Positions 22,466 to 63,200 of a stretch of 64,000 nucleotides of DNA are shown one piece after another. The DNA is from Cladocopium goreaui. Its lineage: Eukaryota > Sar > Dinophyceae > Suessiales > Symbiodiniaceae. The first letter of the stretch is position 1; every line of letters begins with the position of its first letter. The notes below the pieces were generated by a model that had not been told where the DNA came from, searched no databases, and worked only from the letters and a program-made list of their open reading frames with translations. Made by a program: the position numbers and the translations under genes. The stretch lies in contig CAMXCT020001125.1 in assembly GCA_947184155.2 (NCBI GenBank), forward strand, positions 648,372 to 712,371. Direction: 5' to 3'.

Positions 22466-22497
<32 letters not shown>

Positions 22498-23380: not shown

Positions 23381-25725
23381 CCTATCTATATTTAAAAATA
23401 TATCTATCTATATTTAAAAATATATCTATCTATATTTAAATATATATCTATCTATATTTAAATATATATCTATCTATATTTCAAAATATATCTATCTATA
23501 TTTAAAAATATATCTATCTATGTTTAAATATATATCTATCTATATTTAAAAATATATCTATCTATATTTAAAAATATATCTATCTATATTTAAAAATATA
23601 TCTATCTATATTTAAAAAATATATCTATTCTATATTTAAAATATTATCTATCTATTATTTAAAAATATATCTATCTATATTTAAAATATATCCATCTATA
23701 TTTTAAAAATATTATCTATCTATATTTTAAAAATATATCTATCTATATTTAAAAAATATATCTTATCTATATTTAAAATATATCTATCTAATTTAAATAT
23801 AATATCTATCTATTATTTTAAAATGTATCTAATCTATATTTAAAAATATATCTATCTATATTTTAAAATTATACCTATGCTATATTTAATATATCTATCT
23901 ATATTTAAAAATATATCTATCTATATTTAAATATATATCTATCTATATTTAAAAATATATCTATCTATATTTAAAAATATATCTATCTATATTTAAAAAT
24001 ATATCTATCTATATTTAAATCTATATCTATCTATATTTAAAAATATATCTATCTATATTTAAAAATATATCTATCTATATTTAAAAATATATCTATCTAT
24101 ATTTAAAAATATACCTATCTATATTTAAAAATATATCTATCTATATTTAAAAATATATCTATCTATATTTAAAAATATATCTATCTATATTTAAAAATAT
24201 ATCTATCTATATTTAAATATATATCTATCTATATTTAAAAATATATCTATCTATATTTAAAAATATATCTATCTATATTCAAATATATATCTATCTATAG
24301 TTAAAAATATATCTATCTATATTTAAATATATATCTATCTATATTTAAAAATATATCTATCTATATTTAAAAATATATCTATCTATATTTAAAAATATAT
24401 CTATCTATATTTAAAAATATATCTATCTATATTTAAAATATATCTATCTATATTTAAAAATATATCTATCTATATTTAAAAATATATCTATCTATATTTA
24501 AAAATATATCTATCTATATTTAAAAATATATCTATCTATATTTAAATATATATATAATCTATATTTAAAAATATATCTATCTATATTTAAAAATATATCT
24601 ATCTATATTTAAAAATATATCTATCTATATTTAAAAATATATCTATCTATATTTAAAAATATATCCATCTATATTTAAAAATATATCTATCTATATTTAA
24701 AAATATATCTATCTATATTTAAAAATATATCTATCTATATTTAAAAATATATCTATCTATATTTAAATATATATCTATCTATATTTAAAAATATATCTAT
24801 CTATATTTAAAAATATACCTATCTATATTTAAAAATATATCTATCTATATTTAAATATATATCTATCTATATTTAAAAATATATCTATCTATATTTAAAC
24901 ATATATCTATCTAAATTTAAATATATATATCTATCTATATTTAAAAATATATCTATCTATATTTAAAAATATATCTATCTATATTTAAATATATATCTAT
25001 CTATATTTAAATATATATCTATCTATATTTAAAAATATATCTATCTATATTTTAAAATATACCTATCTATATTTAAAAATATATCTATCTATATTTAAAT
25101 ATATATCTATCTATATTTAAAAATATATCTATCTATATTATATATTATATATCTATCTATATTTAAAAATATATCTATCTATATTTAAAAATATATCTAT
25201 CTATATTTAAAAATATATCTATCTATATTTAAATATATATCTATCTATATTTAAAAATATATCTATCTATATTTAAAAATATATCTATCTATATTTAAAA
25301 ATATACCTATCTATATTTAAAAATATATCTATCTATATTTAAATATATATCTATCTATATTTAAAAATATATCTATCTATATTTAAAAATATATCTATCT
25401 ATATTTAAAAATATATCTATCTATATTTAAATCTATATCTATCTATATTTAAAAATATATCTATCTATATTTAAAAATATATCTATCTATATTTAAAAAT
25501 ATATCTATCTATATTTAAAAATATACCTATCTATATTTAAAAATATATCTATCTATATTTAAAAATATATCTATCTATATTTAAAAATATATCTATCTAT
25601 ATTTAAAAATATATCTATTATAAAAATATATCTATCTATATTTAAAAATATATCTATCTATATTTAAAAATATATCTATCTATATTTAAAAATATATCTA
25701 TCTATATTTAAATATATATATATAC
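23381..25725. repeat. 22-bp AT-rich satellite, about 105 copies
   Basis: The unit is CTATCTATATTTAAAAATATAT with frequent single variants (TTTAAATATATAT, ATACCTATC). The left 450 bases hold many indels and the rest is almost uniform. It begins by replacing ATCTAT repeats and ends abruptly at ATACAGATTTAATC, 30 bases before the presumed last exon of GT-B. Confidence 0.95.
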
Positions 25726-25754
25726 AGATTTAATCTTCTTTTGCATCAGCATCA

Positions 25755-45369: not shown

Positions 45370-46861
45370 TTATGACTCACTATCATTAAAAAATCCTCCA
45401 AGATAATTAGATTTATTATGAATAATTATGATGTGAATGATACTTGATATACTTGTGAATGATAGTGAGTAACAGATTATTAACAGCATTAATTAAACCC
45501 TTCTCCCAAGATTCTTACTTTATTCATTAAAAATCCCCCTTTGAAACCATTCTTAGCATGTTGCTTAGTCATTTGGGATGTGCTGTGCAGGCTACGAGCT
45601 AATGCACCTGTTGGGCTTTGCCTTCGTCTTTGGCTTCGGCTGTTCAGGTGCCTGTTACTGGAGGTTCCCCAAATATGGTAATGTGGGTAAACCCAATAAT
45701 AACCCTCTATTGGGGATGGCTTATTATTGGGCTCCCCACATGAGTAGACTTAGTAGATGTTGACCCATCCCCAATTTGGCGCTCAAACATGCTCAGACTT
45801 TGTCTATTTGGAACCCTCTCTGTGATTCTTTTGGTTGGTTTCACTAAATGGGTGTATATCAAAATCGGACGGCAAAAGGTGCAAAGGGTTTGGGGTGCAG
45901 AAGCAAACGGCGCAGGCTTGGCGAAATGCACCAGTTGAATGTCACAAAACATCTCAAACAAACATCCATGTTGTGAAGTTAATGCTTAAACTCCCCCAAG
46001 TTTTCTTTGCATTTGCCATACTTGCATGGAAGGTGCCTTCCTTTTTCCAACTCATGTTGTCTAAGCCACTGCTAGCTACTCAAACGGCATGTGCAGGGCC
46101 CGGCTGTGCCCGGACTTAAAAGGCACTGCTGCAAATAACACCCAGGTCTCTTCCCTGTTCGGAGCTCTCCGCTGTTTGCATGATGCTCCAACTTCTTAGA
46201 GTTGCAGCCAGCTGCTATTGTCTACAATTTCATCAAACATTTCACCAAACCCCGTCTATTTAAGGCCATTCAAGGCCTACCCCGAAACTCCCCTCTCAAC
46301 CAGGTGGGTCAAATTCTACATGACAGGTCTGCACCCCGCTTTTTGAGACCGTGTCAGTGAGTTTACCTGTCTCTTTCACTGGATGTGAACTCATTCAACC
46401 CCTACTGACCTGTAGTCTCCAACATCGTGAAACACCACAATCGCGGTGTCTTTTGAAAAAGGGTCCTGCTTTTTGAGCTCTTTCTAGTCCCCGTTTCAAA
46501 TCTACCCGGCTGCCAACATTTGCCAACAGACCTTTCCCTTGAAATTCCTGCGGACTCTGCCGAACAAAGGAAGCATCCTAGGCCATGCCCTCAAAAGTTG
46601 GAGCTGGCACCGGACACGCCAAGCCAAACGCCTTGGTGGCCCACTAACTAACAATCGCCTCGCCCCTCCATTGCTACCGGCCGTTGGAACAACAACTTTA
46701 ACCTGGCAAATCAATTGATAGAATTGATAGATAATAGATACTGGTATGATGCAATTTAACCATCTTGCGATATTAATCGACATAACACTAAGTGGTATAA
46801 TTGTCGTCAATGGACTAACCCTAAACCATAACAACCAAGGTGGGTGTTCATGTATATATGC
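45370..46861. other. stretch with no supported gene
   Basis: A plus-strand segment at 45591-45676 (YELMHLLGFAFVFGFGCSG) is open between a CAG and a GT and is hydrophobic, but it stands alone. From 46502 to 46700 the minus strand is open without a known motif. Nothing else seen. Confidence 0.35.
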
Positions 46862-47479
46862 AAATGTATGTATGTATGTATGTATGTATGTATGTATGTA
46901 TGTATGTATGTATGTATGTATGTATGTATGTATGTATGTATGTATGCAAATGTATGCAAATGTATGCAAATGTATGCAAATGTATGCAAATGTATGCAAA
47001 TGTATGCAAATGTATGCAAATGTATGCAAATGTATGCAAATGTATGCAAATGTATGCAAATGTATGCATGTGTATGCATGTGTATGCATGTGTATGCAAA
47101 TGTATGCAAATGTATGCAAATGTATGCAAATGTATACAAATGTATACAAATGTATGCAAATGTATGCAAATGTATGCAAATGTATGCAAATGTATGCAAA
47201 TGTATGCAAATGTATGCAAATGTATGCAAATGTATGCAAATGTATGCAAATGTAGGCAAATGTAGGCAAATGTAGGCAAATGTATGCCAATGTATGCATG
47301 TATGCATGTATGTATGTATGTATGTAATGTAATGTAATGTATGTAATGTATGTATGTAAGTAATGTAATGTAATGTAATGTAATGTATGTATGTATGTGT
47401 GTATGTGTGTCTGTGTGTGTGTTGTATGTATGTATGTATGTATGTATGTATGTATGTATGTATGTATGTATGTATGTAT
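46862..47479. repeat. (TGTA)n and (TGTATGCAAA)n tandem repeat
   Basis: 46864-46945 TGTA; 46946-47290 a 10-bp unit TGTATGCAAA with slow variation; 47290-47479 TGTA/TGTAA. Frames up to 265 aa through it on both strands are artefacts of a repeat with no stop. Confidence 0.95.
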
Positions 47480-48231
47480 TGCGAATCGGGGATTGCCTGT
47501 CCGATTATGTCCTGGTAGTTAGTGTTGAAGTGATTGCTCCAGTGATGACGTTACGCGGGCAGCAGCTTCCGCATAGCTGTTCTTTACTCCAGTGCTGCAG
47601 TGGGTCTTGAGCCAAAGAGGCCAGTTTGAAGTGCCCCTTTGGTGCTGGATCCTAGAGTGTCTAATTGTGATAATATACAATGGTCCGTAGCCTACACTCT
47701 ATTCGCACCCCCCACGCACAGCCAACTTTGTTGGCTGCGCGCAAAGGAGTGTCCTTTAAATTGATCCACTACACTCGCAGCTGTTCATTTATTGAATTAT
47801 GGAGAGCTAAAGTCCGTTCAGAACTTCTAATCTACAAGGCGGCTTGCTACGATCTCTACCAAAAAAATAAAGGTTCTGTTCACGTGCATGTAGACACGAC
47901 GTAGTCGGTGTCTAGCATTGAGGTTCATCCGATGTGGCGTAGCCAGCATGGAGTCTCACTCAAGCATGTGAATTAAAGAAATCAAAAACACAAAGTTGAC
48001 TATGGAATTAGAAGTTTACCTTCCCGTTCCTTCGTCGGTTGAGATGTAGACCGCTGTAGAAACTCAGCGTCTCGTGCAATGATGTTCAAAAAAAATGTGT
48101 GGTTCTAAATTAGCCGGCTCAGAGTCCTCTCAGAAATCATTCGAAATGAAGTAGAGGTAAATCTCGAGCAATGATTGCATCCTCGCATCGCCAGGTTCAA
48201 TCAGGACCTATGCAGAGGTCATATCGAATAA
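47480..48231 (-). other. 3' region of the retroelement; candidate 3' LTR
   Basis: 750 bases between the stop of ORF D and the microsatellite. No coding signal. It must hold the 3' UTR and perhaps the 3' LTR. At 47606-47622 (minus) GGCCTCTTTGGCTCAAG resembles the 3' part of the dinoflagellate spliced leader. Confidence 0.4.
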
Positions 48232-51200
48232 TCATCTATAACCCCATCCATAGTATCCCTGTTGGTTCCAGTCTCCGCCACGGTGTGAATAAGATTTTCC
48301 ACCTTTTCCTTGGTCTTTTCCACCCTTCTTTGGCGGGGTCACTGGAGCTTGTTTTGGCGGAGGTGCGGTTTCAACTGTTCTCCATGTTGCTGACGATGAT
48401 GCTTTCGCTTTTGACACTCTTCCCAATGCTGGTGCTGCTTTTGGAGCTGCTTTCGACTTGCCAGCGGCTGGGTTGGTACGTTCACGATCAGCAGGAGTTG
48501 GGGCATCAGCAATCGCAAGTATATGGGCGTCAGTCATGTGGATGCCCCACCTTGGTCGTTGATCTTCCCGTTGCTTAATGTGATTGTAGTCATCGATTGC
48601 ATCATATAGCTTCTGGAGTAGAGGTCGTGGCAATTGTCGGCCATTTTGAAGGATCAGGTGTAAAAGTGATATTCTTCGAAGTGGTGGACGAAGAGCACAC
48701 ACAATGTCAACTGGGTTCAGTGTGATTGTGTCTTGAAAGTCGACGTTCCTGAAGAAATAAACAGCATTCACCCTATATGCACCTGCAATGATTCTTCTGA
48801 CCATGGCGTCTTGTCGGTCAAGGGCTTCGCGAGCAGCTGTGGTCTTTCTCATCTCATCCATTGTTGTGTCACGTTTCGACAGCTTCTCCATCTCCTCGTC
48901 AAAGAAGATATTTTGCAAGTCATCATACGTGTAGCCACATTCAAGGGTATATATGGGAAGTCGCTTGAGTACCACTGCCCCATAATATGCATTGACGAAT
49001 CCCTCTTCTCCGATGTCGTCCTTTTGATTTGGTCGGCCGATCTCTTTGTAGAGCTCTTTCATCTGTTGTGCAGTTGGTTCAATGAGTTCACCATTTTCGT
49101 CCTCGCCTAGGTAAGGCACTCTTGAGTCCAGGTCCATCCTGAATTTCTGGTTCTGCTGAAAATGTTTCCATGCCGTCTCGATGTCTCCACAGAAGTTCCG
49201 TTGGAATAGTCTGTAGATCCTGACGATATGTAATCCAATCTGCAACAGGAGGATCTTGATGAGCTCCGGCTGAGCATCTCCAATTGTGCAAGGCTCGATT
49301 GGTAGGACCTTTGATCCAAACTCAATTCGCTTCATCCACTTGGGAAACTCAATCACTGCATCACGAGCTTCGCCAGCCTCGTACTCTTCAATGTTGATTT
49401 CATCGACCGCTATCTCTTCATCGTCGTTCTCGTCGGTCGGTTTTCCTTCCTGATTGAGAAATTTGTCGACCTCATCTTGTTCTCTGAAGTCTCTTTTCTC
49501 ATCATTGATGTCGCCCTTCTTCGAGGCTTGATCATCATCTCCTTCTTCTGGTTGAGTTTCTTGTTCTGGACTCTTCATGGTTACGTCATCATCATCTGGC
49601 ATCACCTCGTCGTCATCACCATCACCTGTCAAATCGATCTTCACCTCCTCCCATGCTTTCTTGACATGGTCTTTGAGATCTTCTTCTCGATGATGTGATT
49701 CGGCGCTTGGTACTGTAGCCACGGCGATCTTGATTCGTTTCCTCCATCCATGACTCACCAAAAATCCTTTGCACATCACACAAATCGATAATGGTGAAGG
49801 GGTCTCCATCAGACATGCGGGGCATAGTCGATGGTCCTCCTTGCTGGGATGATGAGTGACTGCCAACAATGATATTGCATCATTCCAATCCGGATGTCCA
49901 GGGAACAACCTGTGAGTATGACTGAAGTGACCGGTCCTGATATCGACAAGTTTTCGAAGTTCGTCCAGATCGGGTGGTGATTCATCAGGCACAATGTTCC
50001 CAATGAGCTTGTCAAATCGTTCAATGGTGGCCACCCTCTTTGCTCCTTGCACAGAAAGGACAAGTTGATCTCTTCCCTTTGTGATCATGAGACGGTAGTA
50101 GTCCTTTTCCCTCCAGTCGTAATACCAAACTGCATCGAATGATTCGAATGGAATTGTTTCTTGGACCAAAATGTGTCCGTCTGCTGACAATCTAGGGGAG
50201 AACTTGGCGATGGAATCGTACGTGATGTAGATGTAGACAAGATCAGTTTGTTCAATCTTCCTGAATCTCAGCACCATCTGACTTCGCACGTCCCACGGTG
50301 CGAATGGCACGAAGAACGTATTGATGCGGTCGCCTCCTCCTCCGGGACGTAGTCCTTCTCTGAAGATTTGAGCGATGTTGTCAAATGTGGTGCAGTGAAA
50401 TCCTCCTCCAAGAGTGTATCCTACTCCAGGGTTCATCTGATAGGAAGTCTTCTTGTCTTCGATGTGCACACCGCCTTGGACTCTTGAATGTGCCATAGGG
50501 GCACGGATTGCCACCGGCCAAAGCCAAATCTCTCGATCTGCTGTGCCGATCTCCAACCTCAGTGTTTGTCGATCAAGTCTCGAGGTCAATCCATCATCGA
50601 AGTTGTTCATGATGTGTTCCAACTCACCTTTCGTGACCTTGAGTCCTAGCACTTGGGCTCGGATTCTCTTCGTTTGCTTGTACTCAGTGAATATCACTCT
50701 CTGGAAATTGTTCCACCTCTCAACAAGTATCGGGTAGTTGACATGGGTCGTTCCGGCCAATGTATGTTGGTCTCTCCAAATGGCATCATACTTCAAGATC
50801 GACTCAACATTGACCCAACCTGCCTCATCGCATGGTAGTCCACGGTGATTTCGATTGTCTTTGACGCAACCCACGGAGTGGCGTAGCGCTGCATTGAATC
50901 TTTTCGACAATTCGACTATCCATTGCGGATTTTCCCACTTGTTGCCCATCCACTCATTCTCGCCATGTCGATGCACTTTACACCAGCCCATTCCAAGATA
51001 TTCTTCTCCATTAATGCGAGCAAGTTGAAGTGTACCAATGTTGTGACCATGTGTGAATGGTTGGATGTACTTGAAGTTCCAGTTGTTTCCATGTTGTTTT
51101 CTTTCCTCAGTAAGCCATTTCATGTATTCATCATGGTCAATGTGGTTCCAAGCGTTCAGCTCCTCAATGGTCGGCAAAACAGGCGGGGATTCCTCAGCCG

Positions 51201-52104
51201 CACGCTCAATCAGCATGTCAAGCTCATGACGATTCTTCACACCTCGGCTAATTGGGTTAACTTCGACACCATTCACTAAGTACTGTCCTCCTGCTTCACG
51301 ATCACCAATGTCGTACATAAAGGCTGACTGACTATAGAAGCACTTGGTCACTTCCTCTTTCTCAGTGAATCTGGTTCTTCCCCAACGCTTTCCTCGCGGC
51401 ATGACGTTCTTCGGGAGCTTGTCTTTCCTGCCTCTGGTTGCAGCTTTGGATCTTTCGGATGATGATGGGGATTTGGACTTCTGATCCATGATCAATCTCA
51501 TGCGCCATAGGGTGTCCTTCATGTTCTCATCATCTGGTGTGGTACATTCATCAATGTCATGCCTCCCACCACAAATGAAACAATATTGAACATCTGATGC
51601 GTCTGAAATCAACTTCTCAAATCGATCACGGATGTCCCGCACCTCAGTTCGGCGCTTCTTCGCTTCTGAAGGTTGGCCCCCCATGTCATCTTCCTCCTCC
51701 TCAATCTCGATGTCACCAGCTCCGGCATCGGTTTCTCCTGAAGTTTGTTCTGCTCGAGGGCCCCGCGCCGTAGGCGTCGTGGTCTCCCCATCAGGTTCAT
51801 CAACTTCATCCACCTCTTCATCACTTGATGAGACCTCAATCATTTCAGGGTGGTCATCGTAGTTGGCTTCTGGGAGCACCGGCATTCTGGTGATCTTCTT
51901 CTGCATGAGTAGGTCAAAGATTCCCGCTTCTTTCAAGATTGTAATCACCATGTTGTTCTCGACCGGCGGGATGTATGCTTTCCTGGATCTGTTCCGCTTT
52001 GTGTTGATGGTGTCGGTAGGTCGACATGAACTGCTGAATAGCCAAAACGACTCTTCCAGTCCTGCGAGGCAACTGTCAAGGTTTGCCCCCCATCCAGCGA
52101 ACAT
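48232..52104 (-). CDS. ORF D: zinc knuckle plus Tpt1/KptA-like RNA 2'-phosphotransferase domain (1290 aa)
   Basis: Residues ~173-186 form YCFICGGRHDIDEC, a CX2CX3HX4C variant of the retroviral zinc knuckle. Residues ~390-440 read SKRFNAALRHSVG then RGLPCDEAGWVNVESIL, the N-lobe pattern of Tpt1/KptA (LS..LRH..G..GL..D..GWV.V..LL). Then follow VAIRAPMAHSR (cf. IRAxQGHS), GGFHCTTFDNIAQIFREGL (cf. LYHGT...I...GL), GGDRINTFFVPF (cf. R..VH(L/F)) and a hydrophobic strand pair ending DAVWYYDWREK near residue 671. All four residues needed in yeast Tpt1 (Arg-His of LRH and two later Arg) have counterparts. Tpt1 enzymes remove a splice-junction 2'-phosphate using NAD+; here the spacing between lobes is longer than usual, and activity is inference. 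Residues ~762-780 hold a CX2C..CX2C pair; an acidic stretch and an RGG/Gly-rich tail follow. The start ATG lies 160 bases inside ORF C. Confidence 0.7.
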   Translation of the reverse strand: MFAGWGANLDSCLAGLEESFWLFSSSCRPTDTINTKRNRSRKAYIPPVENNMVITILKEAGIFDLLMQKKITRMPVLPEANYDDHPEMIEVSSSDEEVDEVDEPDGETTTPTARGPRAEQTSGETDAGAGDIEIEEEEDDMGGQPSEAKKRRTEVRDIRDRFEKLISDASDVQYCFICGGRHDIDECTTPDDENMKDTLWRMRLIMDQKSKSPSSSERSKAATRGRKDKLPKNVMPRGKRWGRTRFTEKEEVTKCFYSQSAFMYDIGDREAGGQYLVNGVEVNPISRGVKNRHELDMLIERAAEESPPVLPTIEELNAWNHIDHDEYMKWLTEERKQHGNNWNFKYIQPFTHGHNIGTLQLARINGEEYLGMGWCKVHRHGENEWMGNKWENPQWIVELSKRFNAALRHSVGCVKDNRNHRGLPCDEAGWVNVESILKYDAIWRDQHTLAGTTHVNYPILVERWNNFQRVIFTEYKQTKRIRAQVLGLKVTKGELEHIMNNFDDGLTSRLDRQTLRLEIGTADREIWLWPVAIRAPMAHSRVQGGVHIEDKKTSYQMNPGVGYTLGGGFHCTTFDNIAQIFREGLRPGGGGDRINTFFVPFAPWDVRSQMVLRFRKIEQTDLVYIYITYDSIAKFSPRLSADGHILVQETIPFESFDAVWYYDWREKDYYRLMITKGRDQLVLSVQGAKRVATIERFDKLIGNIVPDESPPDLDELRKLVDIRTGHFSHTHRLFPGHPDWNDAISLLAVTHHPSKEDHRLCPACLMETPSPLSICVMCKGFLVSHGWRKRIKIAVATVPSAESHHREEDLKDHVKKAWEEVKIDLTGDGDDDEVMPDDDDVTMKSPEQETQPEEGDDDQASKKGDINDEKRDFREQDEVDKFLNQEGKPTDENDDEEIAVDEINIEEYEAGEARDAVIEFPKWMKRIEFGSKVLPIEPCTIGDAQPELIKILLLQIGLHIVRIYRLFQRNFCGDIETAWKHFQQNQKFRMDLDSRVPYLGEDENGELIEPTAQQMKELYKEIGRPNQKDDIGEEGFVNAYYGAVVLKRLPIYTLECGYTYDDLQNIFFDEEMEKLSKRDTTMDEMRKTTAAREALDRQDAMVRRIIAGAYRVNAVYFFRNVDFQDTITLNPVDIVCALRPPLRRISLLHLILQNGRQLPRPLLQKLYDAIDDYNHIKQREDQRPRWGIHMTDAHILAIADAPTPADRERTNPAAGKSKAAPKAAPALGRVSKAKASSSATWRTVETAPPPKQAPVTPPKKGGKDQGKGGKSYSHRGGDWNQQGYYGWGYR

Positions 52105-55100
52105 AGTAGGGAATTGAATACAGTACCCAGGTCAAGCATTCCAAGCCAGAATTCGAAAATGTCGCCGACATACTCAGCTGTTGCGGTTGGATTGAGCATT
52201 GATGCAATCTCCTCCTTGGTCAGCACGGTCTTCATGTAGTCATGATAGGCAACGTTTCCACCATCCCAAAGCAGTCTGTAAAACCATCGCATTCGGTGCA
52301 TTCCGCCTCCGCAATCCTCTGTTCGAGTTTCACGTTGTACAGTGAATTGGGGTAACAGGTCTCGTCTGCATTTCCCTTTCACCATGTATGCAGGCATTCG
52401 GATGGCACCTCGATGTGATACCTGCTTGAGCACATCACTTGTCGTCCTGTATCCTGAAAGCATTGCAAGTGTCGCAGTGACCAGGAATCCACGGAGGTCC
52501 TTCTCGGCTTCCATTTCTCTCCAGTCAACGCACTCATTGTAGATGTTGAGCAATCTTGCAGCTACTCTTGCATCCTGTGAAAATTCATCCATCCCAATGT
52601 CATCAGTACCGTAGATTGCCGCTCTTGTCCAGTTGCTTGCGCAATTCAGGCATCTTGTGCGGTTCTCAGTGCAGGTATTCAATCTCGAATCATTTTTGTG
52701 AAATCCTTTGCACACATCGCACATCAATTCGGAATCTTCGGTTACCTCGACCCAATGCTCATCCACATCTGTCAGGGGCTCCGGGGTGAATACTCCTCGT
52801 CGGATGTCTGACCATGCTCTCCTCTGGACCGCATCCTTCATGTGTTTCATTCCTCCAATGATGTTTGCTGATCCAGCTTGAGCATCTGTGACCTCTCCAG
52901 CACGGATGCTGGGAATAATTCGTGGATGTTCAGTGCATCGTTTGATGGTTTCAATGTCAAATCCGGTGTTCTTCACATGGACACATTCTTCATTCAGGTC
53001 ATGGACTGTATCATGATCCATTGCACAATGTAAGAAGACTTTCTGTCGCATCAGTGACTTTTCAAGCATAGCCCAAATGACTTCCTTGCCTTCACCTTCT
53101 TTCCAATAAAAAGGCTCACGTCCACAAGCATATATCTGTTTCCAGAATCTTTCATTGGTGGAGTGAATAATGCCCTTTTCCTTCAAGATTCTTGCAAGCT
53201 CCTCGGCCATGGATACAATCGAAGATTGGGACCCAAGAAACCGGGCATCTCTCAGAATGTTGACGAAAATTGGAAGATGTGCTGCTTGGCTGATCTCAGT
53301 GATGATCTCCGCCAATTTGGTGATGAAGTCTGCATTTGGCATCAGTATGCGAGTTTGTCCTCTGAAAAGTGCTGCGAAAGAGATCCAAATATGAACAGTG
53401 GCACTTGAGAACGCGTTGGCGTTGGATCGCAGAAAAGTCAATGCATTCGTTGCCAGTTTCAAGAAATCCTCGGGTTTCTCCAGAGATTCATAGGGAAGTT
53501 GGTACACCTTGATGGATGAAAGCCCCATGTTGTCAAGCCCAGCCTCGATGTCATTGACGACTCTTGAGCTAGATCTCGTTTGGTAAGTCAAATCCGTCAA
53601 GATGAGAGCTTTGTTGTTTCTCACTTGTCCTCCCAATTCATCCCATTTGTCTAACCAAGGTTCCCCGATGATGAACTGTCCAATCTTGTTTCCCAACTTT
53701 TTGAGCTTGGCTCGAATCTCGCCCTCCACCGTATCTTCAATGCCCAGTGTCAACATAGCTAGGACTTCCGTCACAGGATATCCTTTGCATCTGACAAACT
53801 CTGTGGTCGTGATGATGTAGTGATAGAGCTTCAGCCATTCGTAATCATTCTCATTGATCATGTGGGAATCAAGTTGACCTTCTGTCAGCATGTTGAAAGA
53901 CAGGGCAGCATGAAATGTCAATCTTCTCAAATACTGCTTCCAGATCAAATTGGATCCATACTTGTGAGTAGTATGAGGACCCTCTACGATGGAAAGCACA
54001 AAATCCTTGCCGGATCGCAGGAATGCAATTCGCTGTTCCTCACGAGCATAGTCCTCGGCAGCATGGAGACGCACTTCCACGGTTGAAGGTTTCTTCCTCT
54101 TCATCCAGTCTTCAGTTGGAATCCAATTCTCATCTCTTTCTGGTTCAGTGCGACCTTGAGATGTTGCTCCAGGTCCAGATCGAAAAGCTGCATGGGTTGA
54201 CGAAGATGAGGCACCGCCAGTTGATGATCTTGGCATCTTCTTCGGTTGAATGTTCGAACTTTGTGCTTGTTGCGATGCCTTTGGTTGTGATCCCTCCGTA
54301 GGAGCGGATGTACTCTGGGCGCTGGGTCCAGTTGATGTGTCATCATTCACCCATGAAGGTTCCTCATTGTTCCATAGGTCAACTTCGTATGGTCGTCGTC
54401 CGTCATTGAAGGTCAGGGGAACATCCCAGTTGTCGAAATTGTGCATGCCTCCGGCTGTACCAGCTTGAGTCTCGGTCATCACGGTGGTGAAATCTTTGAG
54501 AGAGCTGTGGCAGGCATGACGTCTTTCCTTCTCAGTATATCTGGCTCCTTCATCGGCAATTGAGACATTGTATCCATGCCCAATCAGGATTCCCTGAGGA
54601 ATGTCAAAGACTTTGAGAATCGAAAACTGAATCTCGGACAGCTCTGCTACTCTCGGCAAGTTTCCATCTCCTCGAGCGCTGGTCTTGTGTCTTTCAAGGG
54701 TCGTGCCGAGGGCTAACAAACACAAGAAATGGTTCTGGGCTGCACTCCTTCCTTTTGGTTGGTTGGTTTCGAAAGCAACCACATCCTTCATCACATCCTG
54801 CAAGATGATCTTGTCTGATGGGTTCTGCTCATTGTGATACCTCAATGCATGTCCTAGGTGCCTCATCTGGATTTCAATCATGTTCTTCATTGCCGTCAAA
54901 TAGCTATCATTGTCAGATGGAGACTTCGGATTCACCTTGGTCAACTCGTCCATGACTTTGAAGTACTCGGCGGTCCTTGTCACAGCTAACCATGATGTGG
55001 CACTCGGATCTGTGTTGAATGATGGTGTTCCTCGATAAATTTGTTTCATGCTTCGGATCTTCGCCTCAGTTTCTGCTGCAGTGGCTTGATCATCAAAAGG

Positions 55101-57914
55101 TTCGGGAAAATGTCCTTTGGACAACACGATCCAGAGCTCATCAAGTCTGTCATAGATCTCTTTGTCCATGAAGCGTCCCACAGTTGCGTCATCATATGGG
55201 CATCTGCTTGCGAAGACCTTCACGAATCTCGACCCTTTTGACAAAAACTCCCATCCTGAGCACCCCTTCTCGATGTCCTGCGCTCTTTGCAACAACTTGT
55301 AGGCTACCTCCAGGGCTTGCGCAGTGGCTTCACTGGTGTGTCTGGAGTTCGCAAAGTATGCTGAGTAGACAACTGCAGGCGGCATACCAAACCTAATCCA
55401 TTGGTTGGCTGTGTCTTCATCTGAGATCAGTCGAAAATTCGAACCTCGGGTGTCTCGGAATGGTGATGGAGTCTTGGCTGCAATGGTTCCTTCAGACAAT
55501 CCCTTCAGCACTCGTAATGCAACGGTGATTCGGCTTCCGGAAAATTGTCCTACTGAGTTCAGATCATGGGTTTCGGCCATCCCGCTTTGTACAGAATAAA
55601 GTCGCACGGACCGTAGGTCTCGTGACAACTGTTCGAGCAGCGAAAATAGTTGTACGAACCGTAGGTCTCGTAACAACCAGTCGGAGTCGAATTCAGAAAG
55701 CAGTCGACACGAAAATGAAAAGTGCCACGATGAAAGAACCGAAGTTGATGTCAATCTCGAAAAGCACCAGTGCAGTAGCGATCGCTCGAACGAAAGGTCA
55801 ATGGCGTCGAGCTCTCGAGTAGCACAAACGGATGTTGCCACCGACTTGATTGGGTGACTGCGGACATTCTCGGAATCACGAGACATTTCAGCTTTCAATT
55901 TGTCATCGCATGCAAACGGCTTCCAACGTTTCATCACTCTGACGTTCACAAATGGACTATTCCTGATTACATGATCGTTAATTCCATTCATGATTATCTT
56001 GGCTATCCACTTTGTGTAAACTTGAGTAATGCGAGTTTCCCTACCGGCGCACTCTGCATGGTCATGGCGGCGATCACATCTTCTATGAAGCTTTGGAAAA
56101 GACACCCCCCATGTGACAATCTTCCAAGGTTTCTTGATTGGTTTGGGAGTTTCTTGGAACTGTGATTTCAAGCCATACATGCATCCATCAAATTTGTGTT
56201 CATGAGATACGGTTCCTTCCACAAGATCAGTCATTCTACGGTCCTTCCAGTAATCACAACCTCTAGGCAATTCAAGCAAGGCTGGTGATCCCATGTTGAT
56301 AAGTTCACTTAGCACTGATGCAAACACTTCCCACATCGCCCAGAAGATCTGCTTCTTTGCTTCGATGAGTTGTGTTGTTGCTTCGCTCACCCATCGGTTG
56401 ATTCGGTTCCATGGTGAACCTCCTGTACATGGACCTGCAAAGAACATTGAATCAAGTTTGGTCCGAAGGCATCGCCTTGCTTTACTGATTCCGTACGGAG
56501 AGAGCATGTCGTCATCTTCAGTGATTGGCACGACATGAAACTTCATTTCGTCCTTCATTTTGTTCTGCAAGAACGTAAACCAGTTTCTCTCTTCCGAACA
56601 TAACAAGACGAAGCATGGGACTGCTTGAGGAACTTCGATCAAATTGATTGCAAGGGAAAACTTCGCATATTTTGATGTCATCAAGTCACAAGGTGATTTG
56701 GAAAATTGAAATTCCAAAGTTCTGTTTTTCTTTTCTCTCCAAAGGATTACCGACACTTTGGGATGGTCAACCTCATGTTTGCCTACTTCAATGTGATATT
56801 GATAGGGGACAAAAACATCAGTGATGGGAATAGTTCTCACGTCATTGCAATTGGTGCATAGCGTGATTACTCCCTGACTCACCTTACAGTTCTTACCTCC
56901 ATCGATCACTTCAGCATTGGCGAGCACCTTAAATGTCGATTTTCCAGTCCAAAATTCATTCAACTTGTTTGTTGATTCATGATTGTCGCCCTTGAATCTC
57001 CATATGTCTTTGATCACTCGAGTATTAGTTTTGAACTTTTGTTCAGTTTCCCTCTCATCACATATGATCCTAGGGTCACAAGGACAGTCTTCGCAATCCT
57101 GTGGTACAAAGTTTTGCCTTCTTGGCGTTTTGTGAATTCGGATCAATGTCTCTTTCCCATCCCACTGCCAATGATCTTCATTTTTCTTACCTAACACTTG
57201 GGATTTTCGGGTGGATTTTACAAACGGAATGTTATCATTGATGTCCAATTCCGGATGCGTATGACATAGGCCAGGTGTTGAAGTGGACTGTGGGTGCCCC
57301 TTTTCACTGTGCGAATGCCATCCTTCACCCTCACCCTCACTCCCCCCATGAACAAGGCGCATAAGCGTATTGATCACACGTGTGGCTGGCTGAAGGCACT
57401 GGTGAATGGATTTCGGGTGTTGAGACGGTGATGTCTGTGCATCTAAAAACAAGGCATCAACCGAGAACATCAGCATTGGTGAATCGGTCAGATGCTGTAC
57501 ACGGTCATGTTGTGTTGACGCACACGAGTCACGTAGTGAGCTCGAGTGGGCAGGCGGGGCATGCACGTGCTTTGACGACATCACCCGGTGGGTTGAGGTC
57601 GTTGAAACGGATTGTGAAACAGTGTCCGGGATCAACGGCTGCTTGTTAGGCGAATGGTACTGAAAACACGCTCGTTCAACCCACTTATCAAATCTGATAG
57701 CCTGCTCTGGTGGAGATGCACGGTGTTCGACCTTTGTCCACGTACCATTGAGAAGAACCCATGTGGATCTCAATACGTCTGGCGGCACGATCAAGCCTGG
57801 TGGCCTAGGACGATAAAACACCGGTTGCTTGACGACAAAAATGGGATCCATACCTGGCAAGTATTGTAGCTTCTCTTTACTAGTCAAACCCTTCCTATAC
57901 ACTTCCTTTGGCAA
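51945..57914 (-). CDS. ORF C: 1989-aa frame with a GPCTGGS methyltransferase-like domain
   Basis: The frame overlaps the end of ORF B by 20 bases and the start of ORF D by 160. Residues 1-270 are low in recognisable features. About residue 275 there is CEDCPCDPRIIC. Around residue 496 is FFAGPCTGGSPWNRIN, then LLELPRGCDYW (~551), FDGCMYGLKS (~577), KKPWKIVTWG and C..RHDHAECAG (~615). This order (PC loop, E-x-P, D.C.YG, KP..I.T, C...H.H) resembles a methyltransferase-like family seen with retroelements in protists, related in pattern to C5-cytosine methyltransferases; I see no certain SAM motif. Residues ~690-778 are Ser/Leu/Arg-rich with poor coding look. A new well-coded segment begins at Met 779 (55580; MAETHDLNSVGQFSG). 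It contains an alpha/beta region (~1480-1600, KALILTDLTYQTR, VHIWISFAALFRG) and a CX2C..CX2C pair (~1735-1760). It may be a separate protein. Confidence 0.5.
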   Translation of the reverse strand: MPKEVYRKGLTSKEKLQYLPGMDPIFVVKQPVFYRPRPPGLIVPPDVLRSTWVLLNGTWTKVEHRASPPEQAIRFDKWVERACFQYHSPNKQPLIPDTVSQSVSTTSTHRVMSSKHVHAPPAHSSSLRDSCASTQHDRVQHLTDSPMLMFSVDALFLDAQTSPSQHPKSIHQCLQPATRVINTLMRLVHGGSEGEGEGWHSHSEKGHPQSTSTPGLCHTHPELDINDNIPFVKSTRKSQVLGKKNEDHWQWDGKETLIRIHKTPRRQNFVPQDCEDCPCDPRIICDERETEQKFKTNTRVIKDIWRFKGDNHESTNKLNEFWTGKSTFKVLANAEVIDGGKNCKVSQGVITLCTNCNDVRTIPITDVFVPYQYHIEVGKHEVDHPKVSVILWREKKNRTLEFQFSKSPCDLMTSKYAKFSLAINLIEVPQAVPCFVLLCSEERNWFTFLQNKMKDEMKFHVVPITEDDDMLSPYGISKARRCLRTKLDSMFFAGPCTGGSPWNRINRWVSEATTQLIEAKKQIFWAMWEVFASVLSELINMGSPALLELPRGCDYWKDRRMTDLVEGTVSHEHKFDGCMYGLKSQFQETPKPIKKPWKIVTWGVSFPKLHRRCDRRHDHAECAGRETRITQVYTKWIAKIIMNGINDHVIRNSPFVNVRVMKRWKPFACDDKLKAEMSRDSENVRSHPIKSVATSVCATRELDAIDLSFERSLLHWCFSRLTSTSVLSSWHFSFSCRLLSEFDSDWLLRDLRFVQLFSLLEQLSRDLRSVRLYSVQSGMAETHDLNSVGQFSGSRITVALRVLKGLSEGTIAAKTPSPFRDTRGSNFRLISDEDTANQWIRFGMPPAVVYSAYFANSRHTSEATAQALEVAYKLLQRAQDIEKGCSGWEFLSKGSRFVKVFASRCPYDDATVGRFMDKEIYDRLDELWIVLSKGHFPEPFDDQATAAETEAKIRSMKQIYRGTPSFNTDPSATSWLAVTRTAEYFKVMDELTKVNPKSPSDNDSYLTAMKNMIEIQMRHLGHALRYHNEQNPSDKIILQDVMKDVVAFETNQPKGRSAAQNHFLCLLALGTTLERHKTSARGDGNLPRVAELSEIQFSILKVFDIPQGILIGHGYNVSIADEGARYTEKERRHACHSSLKDFTTVMTETQAGTAGGMHNFDNWDVPLTFNDGRRPYEVDLWNNEEPSWVNDDTSTGPSAQSTSAPTEGSQPKASQQAQSSNIQPKKMPRSSTGGASSSSTHAAFRSGPGATSQGRTEPERDENWIPTEDWMKRKKPSTVEVRLHAAEDYAREEQRIAFLRSGKDFVLSIVEGPHTTHKYGSNLIWKQYLRRLTFHAALSFNMLTEGQLDSHMINENDYEWLKLYHYIITTTEFVRCKGYPVTEVLAMLTLGIEDTVEGEIRAKLKKLGNKIGQFIIGEPWLDKWDELGGQVRNNKALILTDLTYQTRSSSRVVNDIEAGLDNMGLSSIKVYQLPYESLEKPEDFLKLATNALTFLRSNANAFSSATVHIWISFAALFRGQTRILMPNADFITKLAEIITEISQAAHLPIFVNILRDARFLGSQSSIVSMAEELARILKEKGIIHSTNERFWKQIYACGREPFYWKEGEGKEVIWAMLEKSLMRQKVFLHCAMDHDTVHDLNEECVHVKNTGFDIETIKRCTEHPRIIPSIRAGEVTDAQAGSANIIGGMKHMKDAVQRRAWSDIRRGVFTPEPLTDVDEHWVEVTEDSELMCDVCKGFHKNDSRLNTCTENRTRCLNCASNWTRAAIYGTDDIGMDEFSQDARVAARLLNIYNECVDWREMEAEKDLRGFLVTATLAMLSGYRTTSDVLKQVSHRGAIRMPAYMVKGKCRRDLLPQFTVQRETRTEDCGGGMHRMRWFYRLLWDGGNVAYHDYMKTVLTKEEIASMLNPTATAEYVGDIFEFWLGMLDLGTVFNSLLCSLDGGQTLTVASQDWKSRFGYSAVHVDLPTPSTQSGTDPGKHTSRRSRTTW
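55590..55860 (-). other. non-coding-looking spacer inside ORF C with a direct repeat
   Basis: Within the ORF C frame this stretch reads as a Ser/Leu/Arg mixture unlike its neighbours. It holds the motif ACCGTAGGTCTCGT (plus strand) twice, about 45 bases apart, and ends just before the ATG at 55580. It looks like a leader or internal promoter in front of a second coding unit. Confidence 0.4.
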
Positions 57915-60009
57915 AATAGGGGTTTCCGTGTATGGGGAAGTTTGGGATGTCCTCAGTTTTGGATTGGAAGACTTGGCGAGTAGTCATATCGACATCGGTG
58001 CTTGACTGCAACATGTCCAATACTTCTTTGCTCTGCAAGTCCTGAGGTTCCAACAAGTTGATTAGCATACAAGCTTTCTTCCATGCCATGGGATTCTTGA
58101 ACCCTTTAGTATGGATATCGGCTGCCATTTTGGCTGTAATTTCATAGATCAATACGAAATGATCCTTTTGGAAATGTTCATGCATGGAGGCAATGGAAAT
58201 ACCATGTGTGCGCTCCAAATGACGCATGGTTGGATTCCGTCCTGATCTGACAACACCAATCATACCTTGATTATCGTCATGAAACAGGAGTTGAGGAAAA
58301 ACTTTGGCTAAGACTTTCCACAGACTTAATGCGGGGATTCCTAGAGTCCTAAGTGCAGTATCTGCAGCCACAATTTCAGCTTCGGGGGTAGAATGACTAA
58401 CACACCCTTGTCGCTTACTTCCACCAGCAAGTGGGAATCTTGTGAACTTACCTTGGACTTGTAAGTGCGATCCTGAAGTTGATCTCAAGGATTGGGCACA
58501 TCCAGCGAAATCCGCATCTGCAAATAGTCCTAATGATAAATCTTCAATTTTGTCTCCGACCCATCCTCTCATTTTGAGGGACAATGTGGAATTAACATAA
58601 CACATTAGGTGATGAAGACGGGCGTCATCATCCTTTGTCCATTTAGTCACATTACGTGCTAATGCATTGATGGATCTCAACAGGTCAAACCGCGCAATGC
58701 GGGCTGCATAGAGCAGCTTCATAAGCACACTAGCTGCATGCGGAGCTAGATTCCCACGGCTCAGCGTCTCACTGTCTTGGCCAGGACGTGAGTTGCCAGT
58801 CTCGGAGAGAGCAGGCATATCTGGATCGAAGGAATGTGCACACCAAGGACACTCAACTTTGCGTTTTCCATCGGAAGGAGCTCGATACGGGCTGCTTTTC
58901 GTTTCCTCTGGAAGGCTTGGAGTTGATACCTTTTTCAATTTTGTGTCCTTACCAATGATGTCAAGATACTTTTCCACCGATAACTTTAACAATCCTTCCA
59001 TGTTATAAGTTATGGTCTTGACTTTCTTACCATTATGCAATTGGGTTTCACCTTGGGATAAAACACATCCTAAGTAAAGTCCCAAGTCGGTTTCGGGTTC
59101 AATGCGCAGAACAGTTCGCAGCATTTCCCAACCTTTGGCCAGATTTTCGGAGGGCCCAGCAAGCTTAAGGTCATCTACATAGATTACCAACAGCAATTTG
59201 AGCTCATCATGAAAATACATAGAAGGCCATTCCTCTCCAATGGGCTTAAAACAAATTTCTTGAACTTTCTTGTCACAATGTTGTTCCCACATCGTGCCTG
59301 AATCAGGGTGTCCATACAGGGCTTTGTCGAGTCTTACGACAGGGCGACGGAACTTCCAATACTGTATCTCCGGAGGCCATGCATCGGTGGGTAACTCCAC
59401 CCAACACAAAGGTCCCTTCAACTTAGCCTGGATGTAAGCCTGAATCGCATCTGCCAACTTGACGGAGTGCCCAGGAAGACATCCGTAAAAATCTGCCCAT
59501 CGTGAGGCTTCGAAGGAAGCAGGGGAATTTCGCAAGTCTTGGAAGAATGCTGCCTCCCAATGCTGATTCTTCACCTGATTTCCTAGCAGAACGCCTCTTC
59601 CCTTGAATTTTCGTCCAGGATTATCTTCTGACAGCTGGTAATTCTTTTCCACGCATATGCCATGGACCCTGGCCATATGTACTTCCTTTTTGTTCTTCTT
59701 GGCCTCTGCAACAACATCGTCGTATTCACGAACCATTGTAAAGTCGAATACCTCTTGGTCGTGAAGGCCTTTCCACTCCTTGAGCATTGCCTCTTTGGCC
59801 TTTGGGTTAGACTCAATCTCAGCTCTGCCCACAGGTCGTGAAACCATTGCGTTGAAAAGTTTGCTTCCACCCCGAGGCCGTCTGATGAAGGAGGGGGGAG
59901 TGGAAGTCCCCAGTATATCTATGGTCCACCTTGCGATTCCTCGGCCCTTCGCTCCTCTATTGTTGCAGCCCCTCACCCCTGGGGCCGTCACCCGGCCTCT
60001 GTGGTCCAT
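57895..60009 (-). CDS. ORF B: Copia-type reverse transcriptase and RNase H (704 aa)
   Basis: The frame carries RPVGRAEIESNPKAKEAM at the start of the RT region, WVELPTDAWPPE, VRLDKALYGHPDSG and the catalytic VIYVDDLKLAGP (YVDD near residue 277). The RNase H part shows LFADADFAG, STPEAEIVAADTAL, LLFHDDNQGMIG and AADIHTKGF, so the Asp-Glu-Asp-Asp set is present. This is the order of Ty1/Copia Pol downstream of the integrase. The first ~30 residues are GC-rich and not conserved; true initiation may be elsewhere, or ORF B may be reached from ORF A by recoding. No internal stop or frameshift was seen, so the element could be recent. It ends PYFAKGSV, overlapping the start of ORF C in another frame. 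Confidence 0.9.
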   Translation of the reverse strand: MDHRGRVTAPGVRGCNNRGAKGRGIARWTIDILGTSTPPSFIRRPRGGSKLFNAMVSRPVGRAEIESNPKAKEAMLKEWKGLHDQEVFDFTMVREYDDVVAEAKKNKKEVHMARVHGICVEKNYQLSEDNPGRKFKGRGVLLGNQVKNQHWEAAFFQDLRNSPASFEASRWADFYGCLPGHSVKLADAIQAYIQAKLKGPLCWVELPTDAWPPEIQYWKFRRPVVRLDKALYGHPDSGTMWEQHCDKKVQEICFKPIGEEWPSMYFHDELKLLLVIYVDDLKLAGPSENLAKGWEMLRTVLRIEPETDLGLYLGCVLSQGETQLHNGKKVKTITYNMEGLLKLSVEKYLDIIGKDTKLKKVSTPSLPEETKSSPYRAPSDGKRKVECPWCAHSFDPDMPALSETGNSRPGQDSETLSRGNLAPHAASVLMKLLYAARIARFDLLRSINALARNVTKWTKDDDARLHHLMCYVNSTLSLKMRGWVGDKIEDLSLGLFADADFAGCAQSLRSTSGSHLQVQGKFTRFPLAGGSKRQGCVSHSTPEAEIVAADTALRTLGIPALSLWKVLAKVFPQLLFHDDNQGMIGVVRSGRNPTMRHLERTHGISIASMHEHFQKDHFVLIYEITAKMAADIHTKGFKNPMAWKKACMLINLLEPQDLQSKEVLDMLQSSTDVDMTTRQVFQSKTEDIPNFPIHGNPYFAKGSV

Positions 60010-60272
60010 TGTCTCTTATCCACTGACAACCCCTGGCGTCGCTAATCCTACTAACTGTCGGGATGAACGCTGTGCTAACAGGTAGGGGCTTAGCTTTTTA
60101 CGTGGGGTCCTTCTAGTCACAAGTCTCCAATATCCTCCCCCCTACCCGTCTGTCCTCTGCTCTACCAGCCACGCCGTCTCGGCGGGTGTCAATTCTCTTT
60201 GTCCCCCCTTCATGACATCCTGTCCCTAGGACCCGTTTCCGCAGTGCCCCTGGATCGGCGCTAGTTCTTCCC
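60010..60272 (-). other. spacer between ORF A and ORF B
   Basis: 263 bases, GC-rich and purine-rich on the minus strand, with stops in all frames. In most Copia elements integrase and RT share one frame; here they are separated. It could be an intron, an internal initiation region or a degenerate joint. Confidence 0.5.
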
Positions 60273-63200
60273 CTACCGGTTCTTCTGGCCTGTTTTGTTC
60301 AACTTCTCGTTTTTTCCTTTCTTGTTCGTTTTGTTATCTTTTTTTGATTTTGATGCAGAAGTACACGGCATAGTTGGGAATGGAATGTATTCATCATCAT
60401 CAGTGGCTATGTTCTTCACGTTCTTGACGTTCACACATTTGCCATTTTTGATCATTGTCGACTCTCCTGGCGTAGCCATGGAAAACCTCGAAATCTCACC
60501 TGACAATGTGCTCCAAACTTCACCACTCCACGATGCTTTTGGGCCACGTCCTTTCTCGACCTCCGACCATTCATCCCATTCAGTGAGATATTCCTCGTCG
60601 TCCGGGACGTCAGTAGAAGCATCGGAACATGGACTAGCATCAGCATTCCTCTTCACTTTTCGACAATCAATGTATCGTCTTCCATGTACATCGTCATCAT
60701 CGACTATGTCGTACAAATCAAGATACGTACTTGTACATGTGATAGGTAAGGTAACTTTGTTCTTCACAACTTCACCAACACCTGCATCGGATTTCTTTGA
60801 CTTTGAATGAGAGTCATCCTTCTTACTTTCATCACCACCTTCATCGTCCTTGGACTTTGGCTCGTCCTTGTCTTTCTTTGAATCTTTCTTCTCCTTCTTC
60901 GTTGCTTTCTTCTTCTTTTCTTCGACCAATCTTTTGGCTTTGTCATCGGCCTCTTTCTTCTCCAACTTCTTCTTCTCGGCTTTGAGGATGGTATTTCGGT
61001 CAGACTGAGAGAGTTTACGCCATTCTTCAGGAGAATAGGTCCCTTTGGGACGTAATGACGTTCTGAACATTCGTCTACTGTCATCTCCAATCTTGTATGG
61101 GTAACCCTTGACGTTCAACTTGACCTTCTCACCATCGTCATTGAGGTATATCTTCCCATCTCCGGCTTTGCCCTTCTTCCAATGATCTGGTTGGGCGTCG
61201 ATCAATTCCTGGAGAGTCATCTCTTCTGGATCTTTGTCTTTGTCGAAGATATCCTCGGAGTCGTCAAGAGGTTTCTTTGAAACTTTTCCACCACTTGGTC
61301 CAGGTCCACCGTCGTCTCCGTCATCAAGTTCATCATCATCCTCATCTTGGTCATGTTCTTCGTCATCTCCATGAGGCACTTTGGAGGGATCGCCATCGAG
61401 GATTTCTCTTTCTTTCATTCCTTCCAATGTGGTGTTCACCCTCTCATATTCTTGCTTGCACGGAAATGTCAATGGAGTGACCATCTCGACCTTTTCAGTC
61501 AAATGAGGTTTGAGAAGACGGTGTTCAGGTTTGCTAGCATCGTCACCAAGATTCTGATGTACGAATTCACTCAGAGGCCATACTTTGTATTGTCTTGACC
61601 AATGCATCCCTGGACCAATGTGATACCCTGCAAACACTCCAGGAATCGAGTCAGGCCCGAACTTATGAAGTTGTCCTGCTTCTCTGGTCTTCGGAGGCTT
61701 GTAGTTCACACGAGCACCATAGGGAATGAGTTTGCCAGCAAATTCAGATCCATGTAGTTTGCACCAAGCGCTCAATTCATCATCGTTGGGTTCCACGTTG
61801 AGTAGATGACATACACAAAGGATTGCTGTTCTCCAGAAACAAGGTGGTAATCCAGCTTCCAAAAGACATGTAGAAGTAGCTGTGAGAATAAATTGGTTCG
61901 TCCTTTCGGCAATTGAGTTGGTTTGAGGTCTTCCAGGCAATGAATGATCAATTGGTATCTTCATCTCATTCATGGCTTCAATGAATTGAGGAGCATGATC
62001 AGAGTAAGCCTGTCTGACCTTCTTGGCACCGATGAACTGTTTCACTGCTCTAACTACATCATCTTTGGTCATTCGATCAGATGGATAAGCACCAATGATT
62101 CCTGTATAACAGTCTCTGACAACCAACACTTCCTTCTCGAGGACCAACACGTCATCATGGACTTTGGATGTGTCCACCGCATCGAAGGTAATGAGGTCGC
62201 CAAACTTCTTGAGTTCCCTCTTGTATGCACCACGACGAGTCTTGAAATGTTTCATCTTTGCTCGAATGCATGAGTCGCAATATGGATTCTTGTATCTGTG
62301 GGTCAACTTGTGATTCAAGCTATTAGCTTCTCTCTTGAGTGTTCCTCTTTTGGCTACCCTGGATTCACCTTCGACAACATCGATCTCGATGTCGTCTTCA
62401 TCATCTTCAGCGGCATCTTCAGGAGCACCATGACCGTCATCTTCAAGGTCAGTATCGTCCCCAGGAGGATCGCCAAGCGGGGTTCCTGGTTCGTACTCGC
62501 CGCCCTCAGGTGGTTCCTCTTCTTCTTCTCCAGGAGTTGCCAAATGTTTCTGCCGGTTCATTGCTCTTTTCTTCTTCTTCACCTTGAGCTTCTTGACATA
62601 TCGGGAACAGTTGTGGTCCTCAGTCGATGTCTCAAGACCACTTTCTCCATCGAGATGTACTCTTCGTGAGGGTTGACCAACATCATCAATGTCGTTGAAG
62701 TCGTTGAATCCGACTTGAGAATGTATCAGTAGGTCATGGATCTTTGATGCATGATGACATTCATGAGGAGTGCATTCGTATGTCCCAAGATCAACGTAGG
62801 GTATGTTGTCATGGATTGTCAAATCGATGCGTTCTCCATTCTTCGTAATCATGAAAGGCATTTGACCAGAAGGCCATACAAAGGAGTATCCTTCTTCCAT
62901 GCATCGTTTCCCAAGAGACATCACGGACGGAGTGTCGTCCAGTACGTAGGCATGAGAGGTCACATCAAAGGTTCCCAGGTCAATCTCTGCTTCCGTCTGA
63001 GTAGCAGTTGAACCGTTGGCTGTGTGGAACATGATAGGATCACAAGTTCGTTGCTTCAAGTTCATCCTCGCGGCTTTCCTTGCAGAAATCAGATCGTGTC
63101 CGCTGCCAGAATCCAGGATGAATCTACGATCTTTGGCTTGCACTGGTAGTGAAATGCACATTATGCTCTTGGACTTCATGAGGGGGTTTCCAACTTCGTG

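Follow-up and report, generated by a model that had tools for sequence, protein, structure and literature searches.

With NAD+, Tpt1 transfers a 2'-phosphate that adjoins a 3'-5' RNA junction to ADP-ribose and so removes it. RNA 2'-phosphates arise from the opening of a 2',3'-cyclic phosphate on RNA, followed by religation. The essential tetrad of the C. thermocellum (Cth) enzyme has been described as Arg18, His19, Arg68 and Arg121, with His101 and Thr103 as NAD+ contacts; the HGT motif holds the adenosine ribose of NAD+, and some of the tetrad Arg residues serve the second, phosphate-removing step (PMC6333775). Domains of this family, also termed KptA, are already known from polyproteins of RNA viruses (Beihai picorna-like virus and a Botrylloides leachii nidovirus) and from DNA viruses (sawfly baculoviruses and Bodo saltans virus) (PMC9503650; PMC3230848), while DNA-methyltransferase (DNMT) cargo is known from LINE and DIRS retrotransposons of Symbiodinium (PMC5890265). 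Here we describe a Tpt1/KptA-type domain in a Copia long terminal repeat (LTR) retrotransposon of Cladocopium goreaui. The window, i.e., the whole stretch of DNA analyzed, comprises 64,000 nucleotides of contig CAMXCT020001125.1 (assembly GCA_947184155.2), and coordinates are window positions unless a contig is stated.

The element resembles the viral cases in that an RNA-based replicator encodes a KptA domain within its polyprotein, but here the replicator is an LTR retrotransposon, present in the genome in at least 128 copies. With the DNMT-carrying elements of Symbiodinium it shares an enzyme cargo that is found in several retrotransposon classes of one lineage, in many copies and under purifying selection. 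There, however, the cargo of the LINE and DIRS elements is a DNA methylation enzyme, Copia elements were found without any DNMT, and Tpt1 is not mentioned in the available text of that report (PMC5890265). A first-pass annotation, made from the letters of the window alone, had known of no described retrotransposon carrying Tpt1. This agrees with our search of the open-licence literature, in which none of the papers listed, judged by titles and abstract openings, reported a retrotransposon with Tpt1/KptA. The terms 'retrotranspos', 'retroelement' and 'dinoflagellate' do not appear in the main text of PMC9503650.

The domain is encoded in an open reading frame termed ORF D:

48232 to 52104, minus strand: ORF D, an intact frame of 1290 codons, the 3' end of the element polyprotein, carrying the Tpt1 domain.
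50038 to 50964, minus strand: Tpt1/KptA-like domain with margins (protein P0001), ORF D residues 381 to 689, placed by Pfam, hhalign and the genomic copies.

The first-pass annotation had reported a Tpt1/KptA-like domain in a retroelement frame at 50090 to 50935 (minus strand), corresponding to ORF D residues 391 to 672 approximately. We found a divergent Tpt1/KptA (RNA 2'-phosphotransferase) domain spanning residues 395 to 680 approximately, in which every motif quoted by that annotation was present. As judged from sequence comparison, the observation of a Tpt1/KptA-type domain in ORF D was confirmed. In hhalign the window family matched a diverse Tpt1 profile with a probability of 98.1, an E of 6.9e-14 and a score of 95.1, while 200 shuffles reached at most 25.4. 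This profile had 19 rows (host, human, yeast, bacteria and both other element groups described below, which are recognized by Pfam in their own right). When 106 element domains (the window domain and 105 of 120 listed proteins covering it, 15 partial ones being excluded) were compared to 120 bacterial Tpt1s, the probability was 88, the E 3.2e-6 and the score 47.3 over 177 co-linear columns, with a maximum of 22.9 in 200 column shuffles and 16.7 for the reversed alignment. The same type of comparison with smaller sets gave an E of 8.2e-6. Eukaryotic Tpt1 together with the third, retroelement-like group was matched at E 5.2e-6, and the match to the second Copia group alone was weaker (E 1e-4, 61 columns). 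The window domain is approximately 22–28% identical to 34 bacterial Tpt1s, and a precomputed PF01885 annotation is present in 37 of the 120 listed relatives.

PF01885 (PTS_2-RNA) was the sole Pfam-A match for the whole of ORF D at E ≤ 1 (residues 397 to 588, E 1.3e-4). The resemblance to this family was borne out by hhalign, but Pfam itself remained sub-threshold, with 22.5 bits for the window protein under a curated cut-off of 26. This low score weighs against the identification, as do three further results: PF01885 was absent at E ≤ 10 from all four distant relatives scanned (P0106, P0107, P0117, and P0120), a hidden Markov model of bacterial Tpt1 gave the window domain just 11 bits, and no Tpt1 match was returned for it when PDB chains were searched by sequence and by profile. 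The two lobes expected of a Tpt1 fold were recovered in part. The winged-helix RNA-binding lobe of the family was found in the predicted structure, where the N-lobe was modeled with fair confidence, but the predicted C-lobe mostly had a predicted local distance difference test (pLDDT) value below 50 in both structure models.

The catalytic and NAD+-binding positions were assigned as follows:

50878 to 50910, minus strand: LSKRFNAALRH motif with S400, K401 and the catalytic pair R408-H409 (Cth Ser10, Lys11, Arg18, His19).
50653 to 50781, minus strand: N-lobe insert (about 40 residues) that follows the GWV motif and precedes VTKGELE, a gap in the alignments and absent from canonical Tpt1.
50557 to 50559, minus strand: R516 in LRLEIG, third tetrad Arg, counterpart of Cth Arg68 by hhalign pairing.
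50485 to 50508, minus strand: IRAPMAHS (R534, H539), counterpart of IRAxQGHS by profile alignments.
50389 to 50397, minus strand: H570-x-T572, counterpart of the HGT motif.
50326 to 50328, minus strand: R593, fourth tetrad Arg, counterpart of Cth Arg121 by alignment.

The window tetrad is R408, H409, R516, and R593, and the NAD motif is formed by H570 and T572. Among the 106 aligned domains S400, K401, H539, H570, and T572 are invariant, whereas R408, H409, R516, R534, and R593 are each found in 105. All six tetrad and NAD positions are kept in 102 of the 106, the four exceptions lacking one each, so nearly all of these relatives retain the Arg-His pair and the later Arg residues. The first-pass annotation was right that all four catalytic residues have counterparts, but the third Arg is R516 and not the Arg of IRAPMAHS. 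R534 was considered for this position and rejected: Cth Arg68 is the Arg of DKKRY, as its yeast counterpart (Arg71) is the Arg of DKQRF by residue count along the PDB chains, and hhalign pairs it with R516. The assignment of R516 is by alignment, and the distant relatives P0120, P0243, and P0247 lack this residue. The latter two, outside the 106, have a Lys at R516, and P0247 also has an Asp at H409. The domain thus shares with Tpt1/KptA/TRPT1 (PF01885; 6e3a, 7yw3, and 8tfi) co-linear motifs over approximately 187 columns, the R-H-R-R tetrad, H-x-T and the N-lobe fold. It differs by inserts in both lobes and by lying in a retrotransposon frame of approximately 6,130 codons, whereas canonical Tpt1 is a stand-alone enzyme of approximately 180–250 amino acids.

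We searched the source assembly (1.17 Gb, 6,202 contigs) for further copies. The window-family Tpt1 domain was found in at least 128 copies (128 scored of 895 candidates), 125 of which had no stop, and 12 of the 128 lay in open frames of at least 6,000 codons. The reverse transcriptase (RT) motif YVDD was in frame with Tpt1 in all five long-framed copies checked, and the pieces of about 1,000 codons that were read were stop-free; in these copies RT and Tpt1 belong to one frame of approximately 6,130 codons. Across 30 copies (435 non-independent pairs) the Tpt1 domain had a nonsynonymous difference (pN) of 0.0043 and a synonymous difference (pS) of 0.080, a ratio of 0.054, in which pN is biased downward because the 30 copies are the best protein matches. 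The pN/pS ratio was 0.127 and 0.086 for the flanking frame (253 and 210 pairs from 28 copies, pairs differing by more than 15% being dropped) and 0.075 for RT/ribonuclease H (RNase H) in five copies. The Tpt1 domain therefore looks about as constrained as RT, and these ratios indicate purifying selection on it within the element. Related proteins were also present in EukProt (P0117, P0120, P0242, P0243, and P0247). The first-pass annotation had described a giant Copia-type element that had captured this enzyme, and this description held among the copies of the source genome, given the RVT_2 match in the neighboring frame, the shared frame, the flanking LTRs and the selection on the domain.

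The remaining features of the element in the window are:

47480 to 47707, minus strand: 3' LTR, 228 bp, TG...CA, 0 of 228 mismatches to the 5' LTR.
47708 to 47717, minus strand: purine-rich tract GCGTGGGGGG, polypurine-tract-like, immediately before the 3' LTR.
51945 to 57983, minus strand: ORF C, polyprotein middle, with no Pfam family at E ≤ 1; its frame differs from that of ORF D here.
56013 to 56447, minus strand: PCxGGSPW domain between RNase H and Tpt1; BLASTP 2e-13 to copy L086 of the second Copia group; no Pfam family over cut-off.
57895 to 60015, minus strand: Copia RT/RNase H frame, with RVT_2 (PF07727, E 8.9e-9, over cut-off) at 59050 to 59349.
60273 to 63998, minus strand: 5' part of the polyprotein with CCCH zinc fingers, aspartic protease and a weak integrase match, running beyond the window edge.

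The 5' LTR lies beyond the window (contig C1125:715479-715706), and the element occupies contig positions 695851-715706 (19,856 bp). Since its LTRs are identical the window copy is young, yet its polyprotein is split over several frames, either by mutation or by assembly error. In relatives such as P0010 a single chain contains both an ORF C-like and an ORF D-like part. The protease matched Asp_protease_2 (E 3.1e-6), while the rve match (E 0.067) was below cut-off but at the place expected for a Copia integrase. The RT is of Copia type and has the active-site motif YVDD. A CCCH (not CCHC) zinc finger at 63684 to 63746, upstream of the Copia protease, was over the Pfam cut-off. The C-terminus of ORF D is glycine-rich and lysine/arginine-rich.

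Paired LTRs were found in all ten copies examined. Eight pairs were of 228–230 bp with 0–2 mismatches, one pair was 85% identical and one was shared over 190 bp only. Target duplications of 5 bp, read by eye, were clear in two copies and ambiguous within repeats elsewhere. The sequence GGTTATCAGCC after the 5' LTR is a candidate primer-binding region. We take it to resemble the complement of an anticodon arm; a pattern search of the genome gave five matches and its control none, and none of the matches was convincing as a tRNA. The element is thus similar to Ty1/Copia in its RVT_2 RT, in the aspartic protease and weak integrase match upstream of RT, in its TG...CA LTRs and in the 5-bp duplications. 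It differs in being 19.9 kb long with LTRs of just 228 bp, in the approximately 3,300 codons beyond the RT/RNase H frame that include Tpt1, and in the CCCH zinc fingers.

AT-rich CATA/TATA microsatellites adjoin the insertions (window 46500 to 47480; L055–L074), and many flanks looked repeat-like by eye. A strict simple-repeat measure was exceeded by 3 of 18 3' flanks (20 fetched minus two without a recognizable LTR end) compared to 24 of 1000 random window stretches, and a target preference for microsatellites is possible. One element copy is flanked on both sides by a 1.9-kb repeat that is 99.6% identical (L044/L045, contig C5953). Elsewhere in the window, positions 22000 to 26000 have a very low G+C content (15–20%) with extreme strand skew.

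Tpt1 carriage in this genome is wider than the first-pass annotation had assumed, as a second Copia group and a retroelement-like group carry better-scoring domains. Searching the genome with PF01885, we scored 150 of 1,496 candidates, and all 150 were over cut-off:

L078–L085 (contigs C3624, C2112, C251, C2623, C3201, C680, and C5831): retroelement-like group, full-length Tpt1 right after an RNase H-like region.
L086 and L093–L095 (e.g., contig C2546): second Copia group, Tpt1 with the tetrad His changed to Gly where read.
L089 and L090 (contigs C691 and C5903): Tpt1-like, in short frames of 733 and 523 codons, with the GGGGD loop of the window family.

Three of the 150 (174–180 bits) were of stand-alone size. 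One of them is a TRPT1-like host gene (8.1e-38 to human 7yw3) and two are of bacterial type; for the latter (L076 and L077) contamination or horizontal transfer is possible. Another 22, with 92–101 bits and frames of 534 to 2,760 codons, form the third, retroelement-like group. One copy of this group was read over 9.9 kb and has an RT-like region before Tpt1. Its class rests on motifs, because Pfam reported no RT in this copy and the best PDB match, to HIV-1 RT, was non-significant (E 0.25). The motifs before Tpt1 in this copy are presumably RNase H-like, and a CCCH-like motif was seen by eye in the upstream frame of the group. With its VAAWSGH the group was considered as a natural step-arrest mutant, but this was rejected since it keeps the true third Arg (KQRF).

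The other 125 scored 45–64 bits, many of them in long frames, 14 of which exceed 4,000 codons. The sole long-framed copy among these that was read at length, L086, is a Copia element of the second group. Its RT is 44% identical to the window RT (E 1e-65), with just 16 bits to Pfam RVT_2, and its Tpt1 lies at the same relative place and matches the window Tpt1 region at E 0.002. Two further loci, L087 and L088, have a Tpt1 domain related to that of the second Copia group, with CRGH. The window family and L086 (4350 to 5132) have the PCxGGSPW domain in common, placed after RNase H and before Tpt1; its signature seems to us to recall a methyltransferase motif. L089 and L090 may be relatives that stand alone, or the domain captured by the element may derive from them.

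The window family is the most divergent, as the window protein scored below all 150. In a tree the three element groups each formed one clade, and approximately unbiased (AU) tests rejected no union (p 0.26–0.30), so the tree does not settle the number of captures. The simplest reading would be that Tpt1 was captured once before the two Copia groups diverged and independently in the third group.

Based on these observations we consider it fairly probable that the element has captured, and still maintains by selection, a Tpt1-type enzyme that acts on RNA phosphates with NAD+ and clears 2'-phosphates for reverse transcription. Catalysis by the window domain is suggested by its conserved residues, while its substrate and a role in repair are speculative; the first-pass annotation had offered 2'-phosphate repair, ADP-ribose caps, a counter to host RNA-end chemistry and self-splicing as candidate functions. 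The domain would act from its place in the polyprotein, a single long chain in which it follows RNase H. 2'-phosphates would be left on the element RNA, or on its primer tRNA, after cleavage by metal-independent RNases and rejoining of the pieces. ADP-ribose would be put on such an internal 2'-phosphate, which would leave as ADP-ribose cyclic phosphate, and this clearing, inside or near the element particle, would let the reverse transcriptase pass. An element RNA of about 20 kb must presumably stay whole for reverse transcription and would have the same need for RNA-end repair as RNA viruses, for whose polyprotein KptA domains such repair has been proposed (PMC9503650). No partner ligase or phosphoesterase was reported by Pfam in the element frames scanned, and the element would therefore rely on host enzymes. 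A source of 2'-phosphates within the element, hammerhead ribozymes in the LTRs together with a ligase (an idea from retrozymes, PMC4918200), was also considered and rejected: Rfam reported none in the stretches scanned. Its weak matches were taken as artefacts, since nearly all were microRNA families on CATA/TA microsatellites.

A broader proposal is that retroelements of this lineage acquired Tpt1 more than once, in Copia and in an element whose RT differs, because their replication there generally requires RNA 2'-phosphates to be cleared with NAD+. On this view Tpt1 would serve retrotransposon replication as an enzyme and would not be passive cargo, acting for example on nicked genomic RNA repaired by a ligase that leaves a 2'-phosphate, or in maturation of a primer from cut tRNA. 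We hold this to be possible but doubtful.

Alternatively, the domain might be an RNA ADP-ribosyltransferase (ART) that caps 5'- or 3'-phosphate ends of the element RNA or cDNA, as protection from exonucleases or as a packaging mark. RNA ADP-ribosylation has been reported (PMC6582358; PMC9458441), in the latter case by TRPT1, and the capping chemistry uses the same NAD+ pocket, in which H-x-T is kept. A pure capping enzyme might, however, not need the full tetrad, including the Arg of the phosphate-removing step (PMC6333775), that 102 of 106 domains keep along with H-x-T. We therefore regard capping as unlikely. Somewhat less likely still is a nucleocapsid- or packaging-type RNA-binding module, in which the N-lobe is a winged helix, the ART lobe is dead and catalysis would be dispensable. 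The loss of the tetrad His in the second Copia group, the divergent N-lobe with its insert and the composition of the ORF D C-terminus would suit such a module and speak against a working enzyme, whereas the catalytic residues of the window family are invariant or nearly so, the NAD-binding His and Thr without exception.

Most viral ARTs have been interpreted as conflict proteins, and phage KptA is seen as restoring cut tRNAs (PMC9503650). By analogy the domain could modify host RNA, or restore host tRNAs cut by anti-element RNases, but no sequence feature indicates a host target and the change is purifying, not diversifying, which makes counter-defence improbable. That the domain is not Tpt1 or not part of the element, being a chance match, a neighboring host gene or an assembly chimera, would fit the sub-threshold Pfam score and the poor element-only structure model, but is hardly credible given the shuffle-controlled hhalign match, the copy number, the frames of at least 6,000 codons, the LTRs on both sides and the other groups with Pfam matches of 45–101 bits, many in long frames.

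We know of no agreed role for Tpt1 in organisms that splice tRNA without a leftover 2'-phosphate. With Tpt1 under selection in many retrotransposon copies and in more than one group, the element RNA becomes a place to seek its substrate directly. Altogether, Tpt1 carriage, as read from the sequences, suggests that these elements may repair or finish their own RNA. The finding would connect reverse transcription with NAD+/ADP-ribose chemistry, and RNA processing would join DNA methylation as retrotransposon enzyme cargo in such genomes.
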